This document shows positions 3,331 to 15,454 of a stretch of 45,935 bases of DNA, piece after piece. Within the stretch, counting starts at the first letter, position 1. Every line of letters begins with the position of its first letter. The notes under the pieces are model-generated. The model was not told where the DNA came from. It did no database searches and worked only from the letters and a program-made list of their open reading frames with translations. The position numbers and the translations under genes are program-made. Source of the stretch: Phycisphaerae bacterium (GTDB taxonomy: Bacteria; Planctomycetota; Phycisphaerae; JAJVII01); the NCBI GenBank assembly GCA_022072085.1, contig JAJVII010000027.1, forward strand, positions 1-45,935, in the 5' to 3' direction.

Positions 3331-5403
3331 TTACGCCGTCGCGTGCAGCTTGCGCATCAGCCGAACGGTCTTTTCCGACTGTGCGATCCGGCGGCCCAGC
3401 GCCCCGCGGCCCAGCCCCAGCGGGCTGATCGCCGACAGCGCGGCGAACTCGCCCGGCGAGATCGCCCGCGAGCGCCCCGCGGCTGCGTCGTCCAGCCCGC
3501 GGCGATAGAGCCGCGTCACGGCCGCCACGTCGCCGGCCCGCTCGTAATACTGGGCCTCGATCCGCAGCGACGCCACCGCCGCCGACGCGACCTCGCCCAG
3601 CCAGCCCAGCGTGCACAGCTCCCGCGCCATCATGTAGTGGTTGCGGCAGTACTGGTCGGTCACGATCGGCCGGACCTCGCCCGCCCGGTCGCGCAGCGCG
3701 AACCGCACGTGCTGGCAGGGCCCGCGGCAGACGTCCTTGCTGCCGGCCCCGGCGGTGTTCAGAGCGATCACGCAGTGCTCGATCATCATCCCCGTCAGCG
3801 GCCCGTGGCCGATCAGCTCGATCGGCAGCCGGGCGGCGGAGGCGATGGCGGCCACCTCTTCCAGCCCGGCCTCGACGGAGGCCGTTGCTTCAACGTAACC
3901 GAGGTCGGCCAGCAGGTCGGCTGTCCGGGCGTTGAGCACGTTGAACCCGAAGTCGGCCGCCGTCGGCGTGCCCGGCAACTGCTCGTCGACCAGTTCCTTG
4001 ATGCCGTAATGCCCAGCCAGCACACGGCCGACGCCCGTGCCGGCCAGCCGCTCCAGCAGCCAGGCCAGCTCATCCCACTCGCGCTCGGCCGTGATCCGCG
4101 GGGTCCGCAGGACGGCCGTCGCCCCGGCGTCGGGGGCGGCGGCGATCGTCGCGGCCATCGCGTCGACGGTCCAGGGGTCAGGCTTGAGTTGCCAGACCTC
4201 CGACGCCAGGCAGATGCGGTCGGCCCCGGCGTCCAGGGCGGCGCGGGCCGAGGCCAGGTCAGACACGCAGACGGACAACCGGGGGGAATGTCGAATGTCG
4301 AGTGTCGAATGTCGGATGGGCAAGGGAGTGGCAGGCGCCCCCTGTGCGGCGCCCGCGTGCGCTTCGGACGCCGGGGCGTTCACTGTTTCGAGCGTCAGGC
4401 GATCTTCCGGGGCGCCGTCGGCCAGCTTTACGGTTTCACGCTCGCCCGAGGTGTCGAAGAGGGCCGCGCTGGGGGTCGCGCCCAGGGCGGTCAGGCTGCT
4501 CAGCTCGCGCAGCCGGCGCTGGTGCAGCCGCTCCAGGTCGGTCACACGGGTGAAGTACGTCGGCGGGGAGGCGAAGTAATCGTCGATGGCCGACCGGTAG
4601 AGCGAGACGACGTGGTGCAGGTAGGCGGCGTCGCGCATGCGGCCCTCGATCTTGAAACTGCGGATGCCGGCCCGCACGAGGTGCGGCAGCTTGCGCAGCA
4701 GGGCGAGATCCTTGATCGAGAGCAGGAAGCCCTCGCGGACCTGGCCGACGACTTCGCCGCCGCCCTCGCCGAGCGTCACCAGGTCGTAGTCCCAGCGGCA
4801 GGGCTTCATGCACTCGCCGCGGTTGGCGCTCTTGCCCAGGCCGATGCCGCTGGCGTTGCACTGCCCGCTCTGAGCGACGCACATGTCGCCGTGGACGAAG
4901 TATTCCACCTCCACACCGGCCGACGCCAGCGCCGCCGCCTCGCGGACGTCGATGTCGCGGCTGGTGATGACGCGCGTGACGCCCAGCCCGCGCAGCACGC
5001 GGGCCATCGCGGGGCAGTGGACGTTGAGCATCGTCGAGGCGTGGGCCGGCAGGCTCAGCCCCTCCTCGCGGATCAGGGCCAGGGCGGCCAGGTCGGTCAC
5101 GATGGCCGCGTCCACGCCGACGCCGTCGAGGAACCGCAGGAAGTCGCGGACCGGTTCGACCTCCTCGTCGCCCAGCAGGTTGTTCACGGTGACGTAGAGC
5201 TTGCGGCCGCGCCCGTGCAGCAGCTCGACGGCCTGCGCGATCTGCTCGCGCGTGAAGTGGAAGTCGCCGCGGTGCATCCGCATGTTCCACTGCTTGGCGC
5301 CCAGGTAGACCGCGTCGGCCCCGGCCTCGACGACGGCCAACAGCGCCTCCCACCGCCCGGCCGGCGCCAGCAGTTCGGGCGGATTGTCAAACCGATTGCT
5401 CAT
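3331..5403 (-). CDS. Peptidase U32 family protein with repeat-derived linker
   Basis: The 690-residue protein opens with PPELLAPAGRWEALLAVVEAG and GADAVYLGAKQWNMR, the standard TIM-barrel start of U32 proteins. It has the family cysteine cluster (CVAQSGQCNASG, then SANRGECMKPCRW at about 205-220) and a C-terminal half with a second cysteine-bearing region (CRGPCQHVRF, YCRNHYMM). Characterised relatives include RlhA, which hydroxylates 23S rRNA, and UbiU/V, which hydroxylate ubiquinone precursors without oxygen. The name peptidase is historical and no protease activity is claimed here. Residues of about 345-375, between the two halves, are low complexity and include IRHSTLDIRHS, encoded by a short repeated DNA motif (see separate entry). 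It is the first gene of the set running to the left edge. Its start lies 31 bases from repeat island A. Confidence 0.85.
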   Translation of the reverse strand: MSNRFDNPPELLAPAGRWEALLAVVEAGADAVYLGAKQWNMRMHRGDFHFTREQIAQAVELLHGRGRKLYVTVNNLLGDEEVEPVRDFLRFLDGVGVDAAIVTDLAALALIREEGLSLPAHASTMLNVHCPAMARVLRGLGVTRVITSRDIDVREAAALASAGVEVEYFVHGDMCVAQSGQCNASGIGLGKSANRGECMKPCRWDYDLVTLGEGGGEVVGQVREGFLLSIKDLALLRKLPHLVRAGIRSFKIEGRMRDAAYLHHVVSLYRSAIDDYFASPPTYFTRVTDLERLHQRRLRELSSLTALGATPSAALFDTSGERETVKLADGAPEDRLTLETVNAPASEAHAGAAQGAPATPLPIRHSTLDIRHSPRLSVCVSDLASARAALDAGADRICLASEVWQLKPDPWTVDAMAATIAAAPDAGATAVLRTPRITAEREWDELAWLLERLAGTGVGRVLAGHYGIKELVDEQLPGTPTAADFGFNVLNARTADLLADLGYVEATASVEAGLEEVAAIASAARLPIELIGHGPLTGMMIEHCVIALNTAGAGSKDVCRGPCQHVRFALRDRAGEVRPIVTDQYCRNHYMMARELCTLGWLGEVASAAVASLRIEAQYYERAGDVAAVTRLYRRGLDDAAAGRSRAISPGEFAALSAISPLGLGRGALGRRIAQSEKTVRLMRKLHATA
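4287..4317 (-). repeat. In-frame microrepeat inside the U32 gene
   Basis: The motif (C)GACA(T/C)TC is iterated about four times on the minus strand with a period near 7-8. It encodes the IRHSTLDIRHS stretch of the U32 protein. The same style of array (GCACTC iterations) lies at 11533-11571 and 11870-11890 in a non-coding island. It keeps the reading frame and falls in the linker between two conserved halves of the protein, where an insertion would be tolerated. Confidence 0.6.
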
Positions 5404-5434
5404 CGCACATCTCCTTGCAGCGTCCAGAGGTTGC

Positions 5435-5836
5435 TCACCACAGAGGCACGGAGATCACGGAGAAGAGAAGTCATCCGCAGATTACGCAGATTCGGGGTTG
5501 GAGCAGGACACGACGAAGACGAACCGCGAATGGACGCAAATGAACGCGAATGGCGCGGGAACCGGGATTGGATTTCTCTTTTCATTCGTGTCCATTCGCG
5601 TGAATTCGCGGTTCTCCTGTCTTTCCGTCTGTCCCTTGCGCGGGACGGTGAAGCGGGCTCCGACGGGGGATCGCCCGCATCAGAGATGCAGGGCGAAACG
5701 GGCGCCGTGTTATCCTGCCCTCTCCGCAATCTGCGCAATCTGTGTAATCTGCGGATGGCCTTCTCTTTCTCTTCTCTTTTCTTCCCCCTCTTTTCTCTTC
5801 TTTCCCTCTCTGTGTCCTCCGTGCCTCTGTGGTGGA
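5435..5836. repeat. Nested mirror repeat island A
   Basis: This fills the gap between the U32 gene and the MqnD-like gene. Reading inwards from the left there is an outer module (CACCACAGAGGCACGGAG, from 5436), a middle module with ATTACGCAG-type steps of period 9 (5473-5492), and an inner module of GAATGGACGC-type steps of period 10 (5525-5553). From the centre outwards the same three modules return as reverse complements: inner at about 5580-5612, middle at 5724-5756, outer at about 5806-5835. About 100 bases of other sequence separate the right inner and middle modules. The whole could form a long imperfect hairpin. No credible gene lies inside. Confidence 0.85.
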
Positions 5837-5846
5837 TCCTCTTCCG

Positions 5847-6728
5847 CTATTCCACGATCTCGAAATCATCCAGGCCCGCGGTCAGGCCCAGTCGCTGCGT
5901 CTCGGCGAACAGCAACCCCATCGCCTCGCGGACGTCGTCGGGCAGACGCAGCGTGTCCTCGTTGGCGAACATCTCCACATGGCTCTTCGCGCAGCCGCGC
6001 CCGAAACCGGCGGCGAAAACCATTGCTTCGTCGTGATGCGACCGGGCATAGAGCAGCGAGCGGCGGATCGCGTCGGCGATGGCCGACGGGTCGGCCACCC
6101 GGCGGTGCACCAGGTTCAACCCGACCGGCAGCGGCAGCCCGGTCGACTCGCACCAGGCCTGGCCCAGGTCGGCCACCTTCACCAGGCCCTTGCGGTCGAA
6201 GGCCAGCAGTTCCTCGTGGATCATCACGCCGGCGTCTACTTGCCCGGCGGCCACCGCGTCGGCGATCCGGTCGTAGGGCATCTGCACGAATTCGGCGCCC
6301 GGGCAGAACTTGACTGCCAGGAACCCGCCGGTGGTCTGCACGCCGGCGACGGCCACCCGCTTGCCGGCCAGGTCCCCGAGCCGGCACGCCTGCCGGGCAG
6401 CCAGCACCGGCCCGTAGCCGCGCCCGACGCTGGTCCCCGCCGACAGCACGCGGTAGCGGGCGGCCAGCAGGGGGTAGACAGCCGATGAGACGGCCGTCAC
6501 GTCATGCCTCTCGGCCATCGCGGCGTGGTTGAGCGCGATGATGTGGTTGCGGCTGAACCGGAATCGCAGCTGCGGGACCGTCAGCCGTTCGTGCTCCAGG
6601 GCCCAGTAGCAGTAAGCGTCGTCGCTGTCGGGCGTGTAGGCGACCGAGAGCGTCGCCGCTTCGGTCCCGATGCCGGGCCGCGGTTTCTGGGAAGTCTGCT
6701 GTCGAGTCATGTCCATTGCCTCCGGCAC
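5847..6728 (-). CDS. MqnD-like protein (1,4-dihydroxy-6-naphthoate synthase family)
   Basis: The 293-residue protein has the periplasmic-binding-protein-like fold of MqnA/MqnD. Visible motifs are YTPDSDDAYCYWAL near 31-44, which corresponds to the SPCPNDTF-type substrate segment, GYGPVLAARQ, and GVMIHEELLAF with H171, matching the IHE motif that carries the catalytic histidine of MqnD. MqnD converts cyclic dehypoxanthinyl futalosine to 1,4-dihydroxy-6-naphthoate in the alternative menaquinone pathway. No other futalosine-pathway gene is visible here. The gene lies between repeat islands A and B, so its operon membership is uncertain. In-frame ATGs near the N-terminus (residues 5 and 7) are alternative starts. 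Family membership is clear; strict MqnD function is likely but not certain because the first motif deviates from the usual form. Confidence 0.75.
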   Translation of the reverse strand: MPEAMDMTRQQTSQKPRPGIGTEAATLSVAYTPDSDDAYCYWALEHERLTVPQLRFRFSRNHIIALNHAAMAERHDVTAVSSAVYPLLAARYRVLSAGTSVGRGYGPVLAARQACRLGDLAGKRVAVAGVQTTGGFLAVKFCPGAEFVQMPYDRIADAVAAGQVDAGVMIHEELLAFDRKGLVKVADLGQAWCESTGLPLPVGLNLVHRRVADPSAIADAIRRSLLYARSHHDEAMVFAAGFGRGCAKSHVEMFANEDTLRLPDDVREAMGLLFAETQRLGLTAGLDDFEIVE

Positions 6729-6748
6729 GTGATCGGGGTCGCGCGGGC

Positions 6749-7011
6749 GAAGAAGTTCATCCGCGGATTACGCAGATTGCGCAGATTCAGGATTGGACGG
6801 GAGCAAGACGAAGACGAACCACGAATGGACGCGAATGAACGCGCATGACGGGGGAAACGGGATGGAATTCTCTCTTTCATTCGTGTCCATTCGCGTGAAT
6901 TCGCGGTTCTCCTGTCCTTCTATTCGCTCAAATCTGCGTAATCCGCGTAATCTGCGGATGGCTTTCTCTTCTCTTCTCTTCTCCGTGCCCTCTGTGCCTC
7001 TGTGGTGAATC
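6749..7011. repeat. Nested mirror repeat island B
   Basis: Same family as island A but without the left outer module. It has a left middle module (CCGCGGATTACGCAGATT, from 6760), a left inner module (CACGAATGGACGCGAATG, from about 6821), a short centre, and then right inner (about 6878-6913), right middle (about 6930-6960) and right outer (about 6985-7010) modules as reverse complements. The right end stops 8 bases from the stop codon of the acyl-activating enzyme gene and the left end begins 20 bases from the MqnD-like start, so the island fills the gap. Confidence 0.85.
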
Positions 7012-7019
7012 TTCAGCGT

Positions 7020-8099
7020 TCAGTAGATCCCCTCGCCGCCGCGCGGTTCGCGCTGCGGGGCGGGGCGGGGGTTCAGCAGGCCCGGCGAGACGAAGCCCGC
7101 GTCGGCCCAGTCGGCAGGCGGGTCGGCCAGGTCGGCCACGTCGCGCTCGACCATGTTCAGCACCATGAAGCCCGGGTCGACGCGGCAGAACCGCACGCGG
7201 CCGCCCTGGCCGCCTTGGCTCGGCGGCGTGAGCGCGAAGCGGAGCCGGTCGCCTTGCGGGAAGTAAGCCGGCGTCCGCCCCGGCGCGACGCAAAGCTCCA
7301 GGGCGCAGCCGAACAGCGTGTTGCCGTAGCCCGACAGGTGAACGGCCCGCGGGAACAGTTCGCCCTGGAAGCGGGCCAGCGTCTGTGGCGTCAGGGCCGT
7401 GCCGCCGTAGTGAACGCCGCGGATCGCCTGCCGCTGCTGCTCGCTCATCGCGTCAGCCAGCGCCGCCAGCGTCGGCGGCGTGGCGAACAGGACGGTGACC
7501 TCCTGCTGGCTGATGACGGCCATCGCCTGCTCGACGACATGGGCCAGGTAGCGGCGTCGGCCCATCGAGCCGTCGGCCATGCGGCGGAACCAGCGCGGGT
7601 CGAAGTCGATCGCGAAGATGCCCGGGGCGCCCATGCGGCGGGCCAGCACGTCCGCGGCTCGGCCGATGACGTGCGGGCCGGTGGGCCCGACGAACAGCCA
7701 GCCCCCCCCGCGCGGGAAGCCGACCCGCTCGGCGACGGCGAGGAAGGGGTCGATGAAGGCGGCCTCGAAATCCTCGGGCAGGTAGCAGGTCGTCGTCGGC
7801 AGACCTGTCGCGCCGCCGGTCTGCACGACCAGCCAGCTCGCCCGCCGGGCGTGCAGCGGGACCGGGACGAAGTCCTCCAGCACCCGTTCGCGCAGCGCCG
7901 CGGCGTCCATCGGCGGCAGCGCGAACAGGTCGCTCCAGGTGCGGGCGTCGGCCAGCCGCAGGCCGTGGCGGCGCTCGAACTCACGCCAGTATGGCGAGCC
8001 GAGCTGCGGGTCGGTGTGCAGCGCCAGCAGATCGCGGACGCGCGGCGAGAGGGCGTCGGCGGCGCGGACGGCGGCGATGTCGTGCTGGGCGGTGGTCAT
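7020..8099 (-). CDS. Acyl/aryl-adenylating enzyme, PaaK/LuxE-like
   Basis: The 359-residue protein resembles the N-terminal domain of the ANL superfamily in its phenylacetate-CoA ligase/acyl-protein synthetase branch. VVQTGGATGLPTTTCY (91-106) is the glycine- and threonine-rich phosphate loop. GVHYGGTALTP and VHLSGYGNTLFG correspond to the A4/A5 region that binds adenine and the acyl group. It is shorter than PaaK (about 430) and close to LuxE-type synthetases (about 370), and no clear C-terminal catalytic-lysine subdomain is seen. It presumably activates a carboxylic acid as an acyl-adenylate for transfer to a protein or CoA thiol. Its start overlaps the stop of the RND exporter gene (ATGA), so it is translationally coupled to it. 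Substrate unknown; an acyl chain for the reductase of the same cluster is a reasonable inference. Confidence 0.72.
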   Translation of the reverse strand: MTTAQHDIAAVRAADALSPRVRDLLALHTDPQLGSPYWREFERRHGLRLADARTWSDLFALPPMDAAALRERVLEDFVPVPLHARRASWLVVQTGGATGLPTTTCYLPEDFEAAFIDPFLAVAERVGFPRGGGWLFVGPTGPHVIGRAADVLARRMGAPGIFAIDFDPRWFRRMADGSMGRRRYLAHVVEQAMAVISQQEVTVLFATPPTLAALADAMSEQQRQAIRGVHYGGTALTPQTLARFQGELFPRAVHLSGYGNTLFGCALELCVAPGRTPAYFPQGDRLRFALTPPSQGGQGGRVRFCRVDPGFMVLNMVERDVADLADPPADWADAGFVSPGLLNPRPAPQREPRGGEGIY

Positions 8100-10168
8100 G
8101 CGACGCCTCCTCGACGGGTCAGCAGCAGGCCGGCGGGCAGGAAGAGCAGATCGGCCAGCCAGGCGGCGGCCAGTCCGCCGGCCAGGAAGACCCCGAACAG
8201 CGCCGTCGGGCGGAATGGCGCGACGGCGAACAGGGCGAACGCGGCGGCGGTGGCCAGGGCGGTGACGGTCATGGGGCGGGCCGTTTCGCGCCAGGCGTGG
8301 CGCACGGCGGCCCGGTCCCCGCCGCGGCGGCGGTAGCGGACCAGGAAGTGGATCGTCCCGTCCACCGCCAGGCCCAGCAGCAGCGAGCCGATCATCGCCG
8401 TCGCGACGTCCAGCCGCACCGAAAGCGCGGCCATCGCCCCGAAGCAGGCGATGACGGGCAGGGCGTTGGCCAGCACGGCGACGACGGCGGCGACAACGCT
8501 CCGCGCCAGGACCGCGAGGATGGCCGCGAACAGCAGGGCCGTCGCCGCCAGCCCGCGCAGCAGGCCTCGAAAGATGTGCTCCTGGCCGGCCAGGATGACC
8601 GGCACGGCGCCGGTGAGTTCAGCCGCGGCGCCCAGCGCGGCGGCCCTTTCGCGGGCGGCGTCGGCCAGTGCGTCCAGTTCGCCGGCGCGGCTGGAGTCGA
8701 TGCGGCCGAGGATGGCCCGCTGACCGGCGGCGCCGTCGCGCGGCAGCAGAAGCTCGGTGCGGCGGACCAGGTCGCTGCGGTCCTCCGCGAGCCAACGCTG
8801 GAGCGCGGCCCAGGGCTCGTCGCGGCCGGTGACGATGAGGACGAACGGCGTCATGCCGGTCAGCCGCGATTCGAGGAATCGGTAGTCGCGGTGCAGGCGG
8901 TCGCGCGGCGAAAGGTAACTCAACGGGTCGTTCATGCTGTGCAGCCGCAGCAGGGCGGCCGTTCCGGCGGCGGCGACCAGTGCGAACGCGACGACGATGG
9001 CTGCGGGCCTGGCGGCGATCAGACGCCACAGCGGCGCGACCCAGCCCGCGCGGCCGCGCGGGTTCGTCCGCCGTCGTCCGCCGCCGACGCCCAGCAGCGC
9101 CGCCAGCGACGGGCAGACCAGCAGGTTGATCGCCCATGCCAACACAATGCCGGCGCCAGCGACCAGGCCGAAGCGAATCACCGGCGGCGAGTCGGCCAGC
9201 GCCAGGCTGAGCGTGCCGATCAGCGTCGTCGCGGCCGCCAGCGTGCCCGGCCAGAAGACACGCCGCACGCAGGCGACGCGGGCGGCCCGCTCCAGCCGCC
9301 CGCCGCGGCCGCGGTCCTGCATGACCGCCACCACGTGCACCGCCAGCGACATCGCCAGCACGAACACCAGCGGCGGGATGATATTGAGGATCAGGTTACC
9401 AGCCACGCCGGCTGCCACTTGCAGGCCCACGGCTCCCAGCGTGGCAGCCGAGCACACCAGCAGCACGGCCGCCGTTGCCCGCCACGAACGCAGCAGCACC
9501 AGCAGCACCGCCACGCCGCACAGCGCGACCGCGGGCAGGACCAGCCGCAGGCTGCGGTTGGAGGCTTCGGTGATCGCGGCGTTGGCGACGGGCGGCCCGC
9601 CCCAGTGGATGCCCTCGGGCGGCGCGAAGGCGTCAGCTTCGCTTTGCACGCGGTCGAGCATCGCCGGGAAGTCGCTGCGCTGCGACGGATTCAGCCGGGC
9701 GGCCACCGCCAGCGTCCGGCCGTCGGGGCTGACCATGTTGCCCACCACGCGCGGCAGGCGCATGCGGATGGCGGCTTGCTCCATCATGTCCGCGGGCGAG
9801 AACACCTGCTGCACTTCGGGCCGGCGGCGGAGGAGGTCGGCCAGTCTGCCGGCCCGGGCCAACTCGGCCGGGTCGTCAGGCTGCGGAACGGGCCAGGCGG
9901 CGACGATGTAGTCGTCCGTGCCGTAACGGCGCTCCAGGGCCTGGTAGTGCTCGGCCATCGGGCCGCCGGCCTTCATCCAGAACGAGAGCGAGTTGTCGGT
10001 GCGATAGCCGCGGGCCGCGACGACGGCCGCGACGACCGACGCCGCGAGCGTCGCCGCCGCGACGATCCGGCGCCGCCGCAGGGGCCCGGCGATCAGCAGG
10101 GTCGCCAGCCCGCGGCGCGTGCGGCGCCGGTGGCCGGTCGCGTCATGTTGTGAAGCGTCTTGCGTCAT
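8096..10168 (-). CDS. RND superfamily (MMPL-type) exporter
   Basis: The 690-residue protein has two homologous halves. Each has one membrane helix, a large periplasmic loop and then a block of five helices; TM1 lies near 35-55, TM2-6 near 208-355, TM7 near 390-410 and TM8-12 near 530-685. The second block contains GLAVDGTIHFLVRYRR, where RND proteins of the MMPL/HpnN/SSD class have the GxxxDyxiy-type helix involved in proton coupling. MMPL and HpnN relatives move lipids such as mycolates or hopanoids to the outer membrane. The gene starts 4 bases after the phosphatase-like gene and overlaps the adenylating enzyme gene, so it is in the middle of one operon. It probably exports the lipid product of the cluster; the cargo is inferred only from neighbours. 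Confidence 0.85.
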   Translation of the reverse strand: MTQDASQHDATGHRRRTRRGLATLLIAGPLRRRRIVAAATLAASVVAAVVAARGYRTDNSLSFWMKAGGPMAEHYQALERRYGTDDYIVAAWPVPQPDDPAELARAGRLADLLRRRPEVQQVFSPADMMEQAAIRMRLPRVVGNMVSPDGRTLAVAARLNPSQRSDFPAMLDRVQSEADAFAPPEGIHWGGPPVANAAITEASNRSLRLVLPAVALCGVAVLLVLLRSWRATAAVLLVCSAATLGAVGLQVAAGVAGNLILNIIPPLVFVLAMSLAVHVVAVMQDRGRGGRLERAARVACVRRVFWPGTLAAATTLIGTLSLALADSPPVIRFGLVAGAGIVLAWAINLLVCPSLAALLGVGGGRRRTNPRGRAGWVAPLWRLIAARPAAIVVAFALVAAAGTAALLRLHSMNDPLSYLSPRDRLHRDYRFLESRLTGMTPFVLIVTGRDEPWAALQRWLAEDRSDLVRRTELLLPRDGAAGQRAILGRIDSSRAGELDALADAARERAAALGAAAELTGAVPVILAGQEHIFRGLLRGLAATALLFAAILAVLARSVVAAVVAVLANALPVIACFGAMAALSVRLDVATAMIGSLLLGLAVDGTIHFLVRYRRRGGDRAAVRHAWRETARPMTVTALATAAAFALFAVAPFRPTALFGVFLAGGLAAAWLADLLFLPAGLLLTRRGGVA

Positions 10169-10172
10169 CGCG

Positions 10173-10763
10173 TCATCCGCGCCGTCCGCCTTCAGCCGTC
10201 CGCACCGGCGGCTGCGGCAGTCGGCGGTAAGGCCGGTAGTCGCCCAGGAACTGCCGCACCGGCGGCTCGGGCGGGCTGCCGGCGATCCGCGTCAATTCCG
10301 CCATTGCCTTGTCCGCGGACCAACTCTGGACATACATCCGATAGAGGGCCGTCAGCTCGCCGCCGAAGGCGCTGTCGCCCGGGCTGTGCACCAGCACCGG
10401 CCGATTGTCCGGGTCGGCGACGATCTGCATGAACCGGTCGGCCAACTCGCCCGTCAGGCCGGCCTCGTGCATCGCCAGGGGGATGATGCGGATGCCCAAC
10501 CGCTCGGCCTGGTCGAGGTTGGGGCTCTTCCAGCCGCTCTCGGACGCGCCCGGCGGCGTAAGCAGGACGACGGTGCGGATGTGGTAATCGTTGCGCACGC
10601 GCCGCCAGTCCAGGTCGCCCGGCTGCCAGCAGGCGTAGAGCGTATCTTCCTCGACGTCGTAGATCGCCGGGGCTGTCCGGTATTGCCGCCACGCCCCGAA
10701 CCCGATCGCCGCCACGAACGCCGCCGCCAAGCCGGCCAGCAGTCTGCCTCTGGCGTGTTTCAT
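10173..10763 (-). CDS. Tyrosine/dual-specificity phosphatase fold, predicted inactive
   Basis: This is a 196-residue protein with an N-terminal membrane anchor or signal (about 7-24) and a cysteine-phosphatase-like domain: RTVVLLTPPG, IRIIPLAMHE, then RPVLVHSPGDSAFGGELTALYRM. The last segment aligns with the PTP loop PVLVHCxxGxxRTGxxxALYRM. The catalytic cysteine is Ser127 (codon AGC), the loop glycine is replaced and the phosphate-binding arginine is Phe. All other framework positions, including the following YRM helix, are kept, so it reads as a maintained pseudoenzyme rather than decay. The start at 10763 overlaps the hydrolase stop (ATGA). It may bind a phosphorylated or anionic ligand, or act as a regulatory or scaffold protein on the periplasmic side. 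Confidence 0.75.
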   Translation of the reverse strand: MKHARGRLLAGLAAAFVAAIGFGAWRQYRTAPAIYDVEEDTLYACWQPGDLDWRRVRNDYHIRTVVLLTPPGASESGWKSPNLDQAERLGIRIIPLAMHEAGLTGELADRFMQIVADPDNRPVLVHSPGDSAFGGELTALYRMYVQSWSADKAMAELTRIAGSPPEPPVRQFLGDYRPYRRLPQPPVRTAEGGRRG

Positions 10764-11521
10764 GTCCAGTCCTCCCGCATCCCTCCGTCCAGGAACTCCA
10801 CCGCTGCGCGGGCCACCTGCGCCTGGCGGCCCTTGAAGAAGTGATCCGCCCCGGCGAACCAGAGCGTCGTCATGCCTGCCGATGCCGCCGCGAAATCGCG
10901 GTAGCGGTCCGCCGGCGTCGCGAAGTCGTTGTCCGAGCAGATCAGCAGCCGCCGGTGATCCGAGCGGGCCAGGCCGGCGAAGTCGTGCGTCGCCAGCGTC
11001 GGGCAGACGGCCACCGCCGCTGCCAGGTCGTGGCCGTTCAGCGAGCCGCCGTTGCGGCACTGGGCCAGGTCACGCAGCCGCTCGCTGAGCAGGTAGGCCC
11101 CGAAGCTGTAGCCGATCCCCGCTCGCGGCAGGTCGCCCAGCTCGGCAGCCAGGAAGTCGTCGGCTGCCGCCACGTCGGCCAGCTTCTCCAGGTCGTCCGG
11201 CGCGTGGCCGGTCGCCAGAAACGCGCTCATGCGGTCGGCCAGCTCGCCCGGCGGCGGGGCGCCGTCGCTGGCGCCGTTGCCGCGATAGTCGAACCGAAGG
11301 GCCGCCCAGCCGCCCGCCGGCAGACCAGCCGCCAGCGCCGCGACGACGTTGTTGCTCATCTGCCCGCCCATGAAGGGGTGGGGGTTGGCGATCCAGGCCA
11401 CGCCGCGGACCTCGCCGTTGGCCGGGTAACTCAGCTCCCCGGCCAACGTGAGCCCGTCAGCCGTCGCGAAACGGACGCCCTCGGCGAAGACGTCGCAGGA
11501 TGTCGTGTCGGCAGAGGTCAT
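10760..11521 (-). CDS. Alpha/beta hydrolase
   Basis: A 253-residue single-domain hydrolase. The nucleophile elbow is GYSFGAYL (G-x-S-x-G), the oxyanion/early strand region is WIANPHPFMGGQMSNNVV, the acidic residue is probably in LLICSDNDFATP, and the catalytic histidine is in WFAGADHFFKG. This is the dienelactone/KANL3-like branch that often acts as an esterase or thioesterase. The start at 11521 is the only sensible one because everything upstream in frame is repeat island D. It is coupled by ATGA to the phosphatase-like gene. In context it may release an acyl group from a thioester carrier or trim the lipid product. Fold is confident, substrate is not. Confidence 0.82.
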   Translation of the reverse strand: MTSADTTSCDVFAEGVRFATADGLTLAGELSYPANGEVRGVAWIANPHPFMGGQMSNNVVAALAAGLPAGGWAALRFDYRGNGASDGAPPPGELADRMSAFLATGHAPDDLEKLADVAAADDFLAAELGDLPRAGIGYSFGAYLLSERLRDLAQCRNGGSLNGHDLAAAVAVCPTLATHDFAGLARSDHRRLLICSDNDFATPADRYRDFAAASAGMTTLWFAGADHFFKGRQAQVARAAVEFLDGGMREDWT

Positions 11522-11532
11522 CGGTTCGTTCC

Positions 11533-11890
11533 ACACTCGGCACTCAGCACTCAGCACTCGGCACTCCTCCGGAGAGGGGGACCGGTCCCCTTTTCGCGAA
11601 GACGCGAAAAGCGGACCAGTCCCCTTCAGAGCGGACAGTCCCCGGTTGCACTCTTCTCCCTCTCCCTCGCACGCGAGGGAGAGGGCCGGGGTGAGGGTGT
11701 CTTCATTCCGCACTCGCAACTCGAAACTTGAAACTCGTCACTCGGCACTCCTCCGGAGAGGGGGACCGGTCCCCTTTTCGCGAAGACGCGAAAAGCGGAC
11801 CAGTCCCCGGTTGCACTCTTCTCCCTCTCCCTCGCACGCGAGGGAGAGGGCCGGGGTGAGGGTGTCCTCATTCCGCACTCCGCACTCAGC
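11533..11890. repeat. Repeat island D: duplicated 128-bp hairpin-rich unit
   Basis: Copy 1 is 11555-11701 and copy 2 is 11739-11866. The two are identical by eye over 128 bases except that copy 1 has 19 extra bases at 11625-11643, themselves a partial echo of the preceding segment. Each unit contains three palindromes: GGGGGACCGGTCCCC, TTTTCGCGAAGACGCGAAAA, and CTCTCCCTCGC paired with GCGAGGGAGAG. The units are flanked and separated by arrays of CACTCNG/GCACTC steps of period about 7. The island occupies the whole gap between the reductase and hydrolase genes. Confidence 0.9.
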
Positions 11891-11916
11891 GCTCGCTCCG
11901 TTGGAGAGGGCCGGGC

Positions 11917-13485
11917 CTACCGGACCGAGGCGTAATGCTCGCTCTCCAACTGCTCGACCGTCGTGGGGCACTCGTTCATGAACTGCTGGAATATCATCGC
12001 CAGCTTGAGCGCCAGCTCCATGTCGCCGTCGATGCTCACCCGGTCGTCCAGGAACGCCGCCTGCGGGCTGCGCTGCCCGTCGATCACTTCGCCCAGCGTG
12101 CGGCCGTCCAGCCGATAGAGCACGTCAGGCGGCGCGCCTCGGCCACCGGCGAGAACGCCGGTCAGTCGGCCTGCGTCGAAGCTCAGGTCCCACCGCCCGC
12201 CGCCGCTGCCGGTGATCTCGAAGCCCATCGTCACGGTCATCGCGGCCACGCGGGCGACGATCGAATCGGGCATCCGCCGGGGCAGAAAGCCCTCGAAGTA
12301 ACGTCGCGGGAATCCGTCGTCGGTGGCGTCGGGGGCGTCGTTGGCAGCCGGACGGGCGGCCGGTCGCCGGCCCCACTGCCGCGAGCGGGCGTAGTCGATC
12401 AGGCGGCTGAGATAGGCCTCGTCCAGCGTCGGCGGCGTCAGGCCCAGCCGGGCGATCAGGCCGCCCGTCGCGCCCAGCGTGAACAGCGGCCCGGGCCCGA
12501 AGTACTGGCGGAGCTGGTCGACCTGACCGTCAAAGACCCGCTGCCAGACGTTCTGCGGGTCGGGGGACGGGGTGCCCGGCTCGTCGGCGATGCAACCGAC
12601 GTCCATCTCCAGCGCCCGGTTGGTCCAGTCGCGAAGTTGAAGCACGGTCGGCGGGGCAGGGTGTAGGATCGGCCAGACGCCGTCGGCGCAGGCCGGGTCG
12701 TTCACGATTGCGGCCATCAGCGTCGCGGCCCAGTCCAGCGGCACGACGGCCGGCGTGTAGGCGACGCGCCCGGGCAGCACCAGCGGCAGCCGGATCGGCG
12801 CGGGACGGCCCTGCGACCGCCACCGCGACCGCATCGTGTCCAGCGTCCGCAGTACGCGGTAGAGCCCGGTGAAGCCGTGGACGGCGCCGTCGCTCCACCG
12901 CCCGACGACGATGCCGGGCCGATGGATCGTGACGACGGCGCTGGTGCGGGCGGCGAACTGGCGGACGAGTTGTTCGCCCTGCCATTTGCTCTTCTCGTAG
13001 GCGTTGGTGAACAGGTGCGGCCGACGGGCGTCGTCCGGGTCCACCGTGCCCGTGACCCGTCCGGCGACGTAGGCGGTCGAAACATGATGCACGTGGGCGA
13101 TGCCGTAGCGCTCCGCGAGTGAGAGCACGCGCGCGGTCCCCTGGACGTTGGTCGCGAAGGGCTCGCCGTCGGCGGTCGGGTCGAACTGCGTGCTGCCGGC
13201 GACGTGCAGCAGCGTCGAGACGCCGGCCAGGGCGGCGTCGGCCTGGGCACGGTCCATCCCCAGGTCGGCGACGGCCAGGTCCGCGGGGACCGCCCGGGCG
13301 TCGGCGCCGGCGAGGTCCTCGTCGGCCAGAAAGTCGGCCAGCCGCTGGTCGGCGGTGCGGGAGTCGGCCGGGCGGATGAGCAGGCGCAGCCGCCGTCCCG
13401 CGCGCAGCAGGCGTGCACAGAGTTCGCGCCCGACGATGCCCAGCCCGCCGGTGGCCAGCAGGACGTCTTGCTGTGATGAATTCAT
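11917..13485 (-). CDS. Extended SDR / fatty-acyl-reductase-like protein with SCP2-like C-terminus
   Basis: A 522-residue two-domain protein. Residues 1-330 form a Rossmann domain of the NAD_binding_4 (thioester reductase/male sterility) type: LLATGGLGIVG (TGxxGxxG, T12-G19), HVAGSTQFDP, HHVSTAYVAG (S136) and the YxxxK pair Y163/K167 in NAYEKSKWQGEQ. Such enzymes reduce acyl thioesters to aldehyde or alcohol. Residues of about 405-522 (FEGFLPRRMPDS, RWDLSFDAGRLTG, VLYRLDGRTLGEVIDGQ, AFLDDRVSIDGDMELALKLA) have the pattern of a sterol-carrier-protein-2 lipid-binding domain. The start at 13485 has GGGAG about 11 bases upstream and immediately precedes the Rossmann fold. It is the first gene of the probable lipid operon. 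Confidence 0.8.
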   Translation of the reverse strand: MNSSQQDVLLATGGLGIVGRELCARLLRAGRRLRLLIRPADSRTADQRLADFLADEDLAGADARAVPADLAVADLGMDRAQADAALAGVSTLLHVAGSTQFDPTADGEPFATNVQGTARVLSLAERYGIAHVHHVSTAYVAGRVTGTVDPDDARRPHLFTNAYEKSKWQGEQLVRQFAARTSAVVTIHRPGIVVGRWSDGAVHGFTGLYRVLRTLDTMRSRWRSQGRPAPIRLPLVLPGRVAYTPAVVPLDWAATLMAAIVNDPACADGVWPILHPAPPTVLQLRDWTNRALEMDVGCIADEPGTPSPDPQNVWQRVFDGQVDQLRQYFGPGPLFTLGATGGLIARLGLTPPTLDEAYLSRLIDYARSRQWGRRPAARPAANDAPDATDDGFPRRYFEGFLPRRMPDSIVARVAAMTVTMGFEITGSGGGRWDLSFDAGRLTGVLAGGRGAPPDVLYRLDGRTLGEVIDGQRSPQAAFLDDRVSIDGDMELALKLAMIFQQFMNECPTTVEQLESEHYASVR

Positions 13486-13603
13486 GCGGTTCCGACTCCC
13501 TGGCGCAGGCGGCTCGGCGGTGCAGGGGCCTGATAGTGCAAACGGCGTGCCAGAACGCCCAGTGCGGCGGACGAGGCCGAAAAGGGGCCTGTGGCGTGAA
13601 GAA

Positions 13604-13621
13604 ATTGCACCGCTTTGCAAT
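13604..13621 (-). promoter_or_regulatory. Candidate operator upstream of the reductase operon
   Basis: Perfect inverted repeat ATTGCA-N6-TGCAAT, 120 bases upstream of the reductase start and just outside repeat island C. It is the only AT-leaning stretch in this gap. A transcription-factor site is an inference; no matching regulator is identified. Confidence 0.35.
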
Positions 13622-13640
13622 ATCTGCACAGGCGGATAGG

Positions 13641-13918
13641 ATTCACCACAGAGGCACAGAGAAGAGAGGAGAAGAGGATTTATCCGCAGATTACGCAGAT
13701 GGCGCAGATTTGTGCGAAGAGCAGAACGGGAGAACCGCGAATGGACGCGAATGGACACGAATGGGAAAGAGAAAGATTTCTGATTTCTGATTCTTGATTT
13801 CAGATTTCGGATTCCTCATTCGCGTCGATTCGCGGTTCGCTCTTCTTCTCTTTGGTGAACTCTGCGTAATCTGCGTAATCTGCGGACGACCTCTCTTCTA
13901 CGGACCTCGGTGGTGAAT
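13641..13918. repeat. Nested mirror repeat island C
   Basis: The most complete small copy of the family. Left outer ATTCACCACAGAGGCAC (13641), left middle ATCCGCAGATTACGCAGAT (from 13682), left inner GAATGGACGC/GAATGGACAC/GAATGG (about 13739-13764), an AT-rich centre with TTTCTGATT-like steps (13775-13813), then right inner (about 13816-13838), right middle (about 13859-13885) and right outer (about 13899-13918) as reverse complements. It stops 3 bases before the ATG of the sensor kinase gene. Confidence 0.85.
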
Positions 13919-13921
13919 CGC

Positions 13922-15454
<1,533 letters not shown>

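Follow-up and report, generated by a model that had tools for sequence, protein, structure and literature searches.

Intergenic islands of nested inverted tandem arrays are dispersed mosaic hairpin elements in a Phycisphaerae genome

Among the described repeats closest to those analysed here, REPs are palindromes of 20 to 40 bp that carry a GTAG or CGTC tag (PMC3733652, PMC6006769), and the BOX elements of Streptococcus are linear assemblies of the form boxA-boxB(n)-boxC that lie between genes, mostly outside promoter regions (PMC3049150). We analysed three repeat islands in a window of 45.9 kb, i.e., the whole of contig C27 in a fragmented genome of 72 contigs and 5.49 Mb. They are built from the module words O (CACAGAGGCACAGAG), M (CGCAGATTACGCAGAT) and I (CGCGAATGGACGCGAATG), arranged in short arrays of 2 to 3 units apiece. 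The consensus sequences of the three words have neither the GTAG/CGTC tag nor the size of a REP, and the boxA-boxB(n)-boxC architecture was not found. The units run head to tail without unique spacers, and none of the nearest genes is a cas gene according to Pfam; an earlier note on this DNA had separated the islands from CRISPR. An Rfam search of the window returned nothing but a tRNA, with no known RNA family at the islands, and no match to the repeats was found in plasmid and phage collections. Open-access text searched for the words yielded no relevant paper and no published description of the family (subscription literature was outside the scope of this search).

Three islands and a genome-wide family

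Island A (5435-5836) has the order O M I / I M O, with O+ at 5437-5453, M+ at 5474-5493, I+ at 5523-5552, a centre, and then I- at 5581-5612, M- at 5720-5755 and O- at 5817-5833. Its M-I spacers are unequal (approximately 30 bp on the left and 105 bp on the right), and an asymmetric insert of approximately 105 bp occupies 5613-5717, between the right I and M arms. Island B (6749-7011) consists of M+ (6760-6788), I+ (6818-6847), I- (6878-6907), M- (6932-6959) and O- (6990-7006), and its left O arm is missing. Island C (13641-13918) comprises O+ (13645-13661), M+ (13683-13710), I+ (13735-13763), I- (13817-13836), M- (13860-13887) and a degenerate O- (approximately 13901-13918); its centre (13775-13814) consists of 7-bp tandem units of the GATTTCT type, reported by TRF at 13775-13813. 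The order O-M-I followed by its inverse, which the earlier note had given for all three islands, is therefore complete in island A, lacks the left O in island B and ends in a degenerate right O in island C. That note was correct about the lost outer arm in B and the insert in A; its description of the islands as nested mirror repeats holds for the nesting and for the location of the modules, but not for the word mirror, since the repeats are inverted. Heptamer arrays of 4.7 copies each also occur elsewhere in the window, at 4286-4318 (GAATGTC) and 11534-11566 (CACTCAG).

With up to 3 mismatches, all of the 12 M and 11 I matches in the window (overlapping ones included) fall inside islands A to C, against chance expectations of 0.15 and 0.10 in Markov-1 simulations. 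The 13-mer pattern for O (up to 2 mismatches) is less specific, with 5 window matches versus 1.15 expected, one of them outside the islands. Searching the entire genome with up to 3 mismatches gave 98+109 matches for M, 64+61 for I and 58+61 for O, compared to 11+14, 1+0 and 8+11, respectively, for reversed-pattern controls. Modules were then tagged in 18-kb stretches around the matches (1.04 Mb in total), so that the sampled loci are all centred on islands.

The genome contains about 60 islands. In two-armed islands, the direct arm comes first and the inverted one to its right, and O lies outside M and M outside I with hardly any exception. This supports one family of three strictly nested modules, and the scatter of modules without symmetry that would have refuted the earlier note was not found in this genome. 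Two loci depart from the order: L059, where M encloses an array that resembles O but was read as a separate word, N, and L033:10841, where O+ is paired with M-. The module sets seen are O, M or I alone, MI and OMI, and a further word, A (CACGAAGG), takes the place of I inside M or O (L030, L052, L028). These subsets and swaps bear out the proposal that modules are gained and lost separately. Between the stacked inverted modules lie purine-rich linkers, GAAGAG in the left half and CTCTTC in the right, and the conservation profiles show element edges running into degenerate purine tracts.

Some O arms contain small elements with ends CAGG(A/G)TTTTTCATAAT (L053:8813-8990 and L063:8540-8690), a number of which bear a P hairpin (CGCTGAGGCGCAGAGG). 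Contigs C49, C57, C39, C41, C24, C23, C64 and C69 break at such CAGG(A/G)TTTTTCATAAT/O sites (L032, L034, L039, L040, L041, L046, L036 and L038). Because so many contigs break at these elements within O, a multi-copy insertion sequence probably targets O; we identified no transposase for the elements.

M (one mismatch) is present in 74 of 294 genomes of the same phylum, with a reversed control near zero, and its distribution is patchy even within a class; one genome of the same class but a different family, G185, has 211 matches. The nearest relatives that were searched, one of the same family (G294) among them, have essentially no I. Among 392 genomes, the joint pattern of M followed by I was found 19 times in this genome and in 3 others, and the reverse order was not found. 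Named genomes with M followed by I belong to Verrucomicrobia (including Udaeobacter), Lentisphaerae and Planctomycetota, in a search that selected for this order. At a locus in a relative (L138), I precedes M. Since in G185 either of M and O can enclose the other, the fixed nesting order is a property of this genome and not a universal rule. In viral contigs, the M plus I pattern had no match; the O word alone gave 46 stretches, and the O hairpins there read O+O- 39 times and O-O+ 3 times, with I inside O in two. Such words are probably common in environmental genomes. In a near-complete relative, a site between pilin-type genes (L139:8000-16600, or G127:C1:3053000-3061600) is densely packed with hairpin words of many families, among them ACAGGATTTACAAGATT, CATGAAG and a REP-like GTAGGTC..CTAC.

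Placement behind gene ends

Islands A and B sit between genes of a single minus-strand run, as the earlier note had supposed for each of the three when it suggested transcription between genes of the same operon. A peptidase U32 family gene (3331-5403, minus strand) is the downstream neighbour of island A, and a menaquinone biosynthesis protein gene (PF02621; 5847-6716, minus strand) separates A from B, with island A approximately 10 bp behind its stop. The stop codon of the next gene (7020-8099, minus strand), which has a weak AMP-binding match, abuts island B. Island C, by contrast with that note, lies between divergent genes, which is atypical of the family: an NAD-binding/epimerase-type gene (11917-13485, minus strand) on the left and a histidine kinase gene (13910-15454, plus strand) on the right. 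The histidine kinase gene begins right at the island edge (13910-13923), a 5' position that few islands share; the ATG at 13923 makes a more plausible start codon than the GTG at 13910 that was called.

Based on our own codon-usage gene caller (86% coding), the islands are intergenic, with a gene overlap above 30 bp in only 1 of 53. They occupy 33 tandem, 17 convergent and 3 divergent contexts, as compared to 273, 48 and 115 for background gaps of at least 100 bp; for convergent versus divergent gaps alone, 17:3 against 48:115 gives p = 2e-6. In tandem gaps, the stop upstream is nearer than the start downstream for 28 of 33 islands (p = 7e-5). Once edges are taken from the conservation profiles, an element lies within 10 bp of 31 of 67 gene 3' ends versus 2 of 33 downstream starts. 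There was no sign that islands replace native spacer in convergent gaps, where the leftover length does not differ from the background (p = 0.25). The islands of G185 are distributed similarly (11 of 15 tandem, 3 convergent and 1 divergent).

Copied elements or paired RNAs

When folded as single strands, islands A, B and C are far more stable than their shuffles (z = -10.5, -7.4 and -13.9). The likeness of arms was 0.34 within islands versus 0.41 between islands for O-O, and 0.43 versus 0.45 for M-I. Selection for pairing, or copying of one arm into the other, would make the arms within an island the most alike; as this is not seen, neither is favoured. Taken whole, islands align strongly as copies in just one of the two orientations, forward or reverse (e.g., 159 versus 93 and 158 versus 46), and island B is a copy of L057:9024 in reverse orientation (alignment score 151 reverse versus 99 forward). 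Unrepeated spacers are common to different islands in both orientations. The alignments make them copies of masters with unequal arms, inserted either way round. The 40 closest pairs reuse islands, so that their counts are not independent. At 310 paired positions a one-sided change turned a Watson-Crick pair into a mismatch or the reverse; at 19, both sides changed and a different Watson-Crick pair resulted. These 19 compensatory changes are part of 49 double changes involving a Watson-Crick pair, about the share due to chance, which would be roughly one third. The transcribed strand has 107 G-U and 98 A-C mismatches, with no bias towards G-U. Given the lack of arm co-evolution, of a compensatory excess and of a G-U bias, the islands are mosaic hairpin elements in dispersed copies rather than RNA hairpins under selection for pairing, and their strong folding is inherited from the palindromic design. 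A comparison of empty and occupied sites via the gene at 5847-6716 found orthologues at 33-41% identity with neighbours that do not match, i.e., relatives that are too distant.

These results bear directly on the functional long hairpin RNA that the earlier note had envisaged. Functional 3' RNA hairpins, acting as terminators in both directions, as RNase III substrates or as stabilisers of mRNA 3' ends and kept for their fold, would account for the strong folding, for the position flush with stops and the avoidance of divergent gaps, and for the same 3' bias in G185; in addition, the region of islands A and B (5350-7050) has four weak intrinsic-terminator matches versus 1.3 in shuffles. The covariation data above speak against this explanation, as do the lack of proper U-tract ends and the absence of the family from similar genomes, and the 3' bias is equally well explained by insertion without selection for pairing. 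We therefore consider it unlikely that the islands are maintained as RNAs. It is very unlikely that the modules are tandem sites for a nucleoid or regulatory protein, inverted for DNA looping: periods of 9 to 10 bp are near a helical turn and the words are sharply conserved across distant genomes, but the islands are at 3' ends instead of promoters, the distribution is patchy even within a class, and many forms lack one or two modules. Arrays of 2 to 3 units with periods of 8 to 10 and a variable unit number would suit palindromes made in place by replication slippage and template switching at hairpins, with one arm copied into the other. This origin is disfavoured and highly improbable, given that arm copying predicts the closest likeness within islands and that non-repetitive spacers are common to islands in both orientations.

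Instead, we think it rather probable that the islands are non-autonomous, hairpin-shaped mobile repeats that have been assembled into mosaics. Each element is a stem of stacked inverted modules with purine-rich linkers between them; new hairpins may insert close to the tip of existing hairpins, or the linkers may serve as points where inner cassettes are exchanged, and either route would yield nesting without selection for pairing. The position behind stops would stem from target preference or from the removal of damaging insertions, and some copies may since act as bidirectional 3' ends.

Outer layers, a RAYT-like gene and described repeats

An nhmmer profile of O-only elements aligns also across islands with an M/I core inside O, so that the outer sequence is common to both forms, and O can stand alone or enclose inner layers. 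Further out than O, some islands have the layers T (ATTGAATCCTGCAAGAGAAATA) and T2 (CGCGCTCCCTGACGGTCGCGGCTA), which exceed the 99% random level on 19 and 7 of 65 O arms, respectively (0.65 expected for each). T2 was found on none of 49 arms with M or I outermost, and no clear T2 layer is present in the window's own islands. The locus at L028:12351-12577 has a symmetrical T2-T-O-O-T-T2 arrangement.

The same T2 sequence flanks, as an inverted repeat, a 200-residue Y1_Tnp gene on contig C6 of this genome (L226:3592-4194, approximately 6591-7193 of G000:C6), with HVH and YVRRNP motifs in its sequence. The best model for its product is the NCBIfam REP-associated tyrosine transposase (E 2.8e-13), at 50 bits and thus below the cut-off of 80. 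The T2-flanked unit as a whole lies between hairpin arms of the N word (AACGCAGAGGGGCAGAG) and follows a gene stop. As T2 is outermost on some O elements and flanks this RAYT-like gene, which O, M and I themselves do not, the O class may have been mobilised by a RAYT/TIRYT-type HUH single-strand transposase, a step that we propose with less certainty. Nothing was found that links M or I to a transposase, and no parent element was found for them. The RAYT-like genes checked in the M-rich G185 are not flanked by M, and across 20 genomes RAYT and module presence did not correlate, Y1_Tnp genes being equally common without modules. Two other Y1_Tnp genes in this genome (L224:3620-4420 on G000:C54 and L225:3890-4500 on G000:C1) are flanked by different short inverted repeats (AAAGTGGACCAGGTCCACTTT; CCGCGAGCGGAAGCTCGCGG), some of which recur elsewhere in the genome.

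As a tentative and rather speculative extension, the words O, M, I, A, N and P might form one superfamily of hairpin-building DNA words, with units of 8 to 10 bp that begin roughly with C-R-C-R-R-A, that are passed between phyla and hierarchically stacked, with RAYT-type repeats outermost, making up a modular mobile class with an undescribed assembly grammar. The analysis links abundant and apparently unnamed intergenic words to a mobile mosaic architecture, and shows a composite repeat layered in near-constant order. The RAYT-like protein on C6 and T2 provide a concrete candidate pair of enzyme and substrate for how the repeats spread. A word of caution also follows for strong intergenic hairpin folds, which need not be functional RNAs.

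The earlier note had held that the islands are not simple REPs or MITEs. Their anatomy is indeed more complex, but the dispersed, orientation-free copies, and a REP-like outer layer on some, bring them closer to both than was supposed. Like MITEs and mosaic TIMEs, they are short, non-autonomous inverted-repeat DNA with many dispersed copies in either orientation, and they form mosaics (PMC2229807, PMC4133298); they differ in having several independent inverted layers, and neither a target-site duplication nor a parent transposon is established. With BOX they share modularity, tandem inner units, module gain and loss, and an intergenic position mostly outside promoter regions (PMC3049150), yet form a symmetrical palindromic nest instead of a linear A-B-C order; BOX is described from streptococci and is not known to be related to them in sequence. 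The resemblance to REP/REPIN-RAYT and TIRtron/TIRYT systems lies in intergenic, palindromic, non-coding repeats of high copy number in inverted pairs, with T2 here flanking a RAYT-like HUH gene (PMC3733652, PMC6006769). Compared to REPs, the islands have stems of 100 to 400 bp with up to five stacked words, and the RAYT-type layer is present on only some of them.
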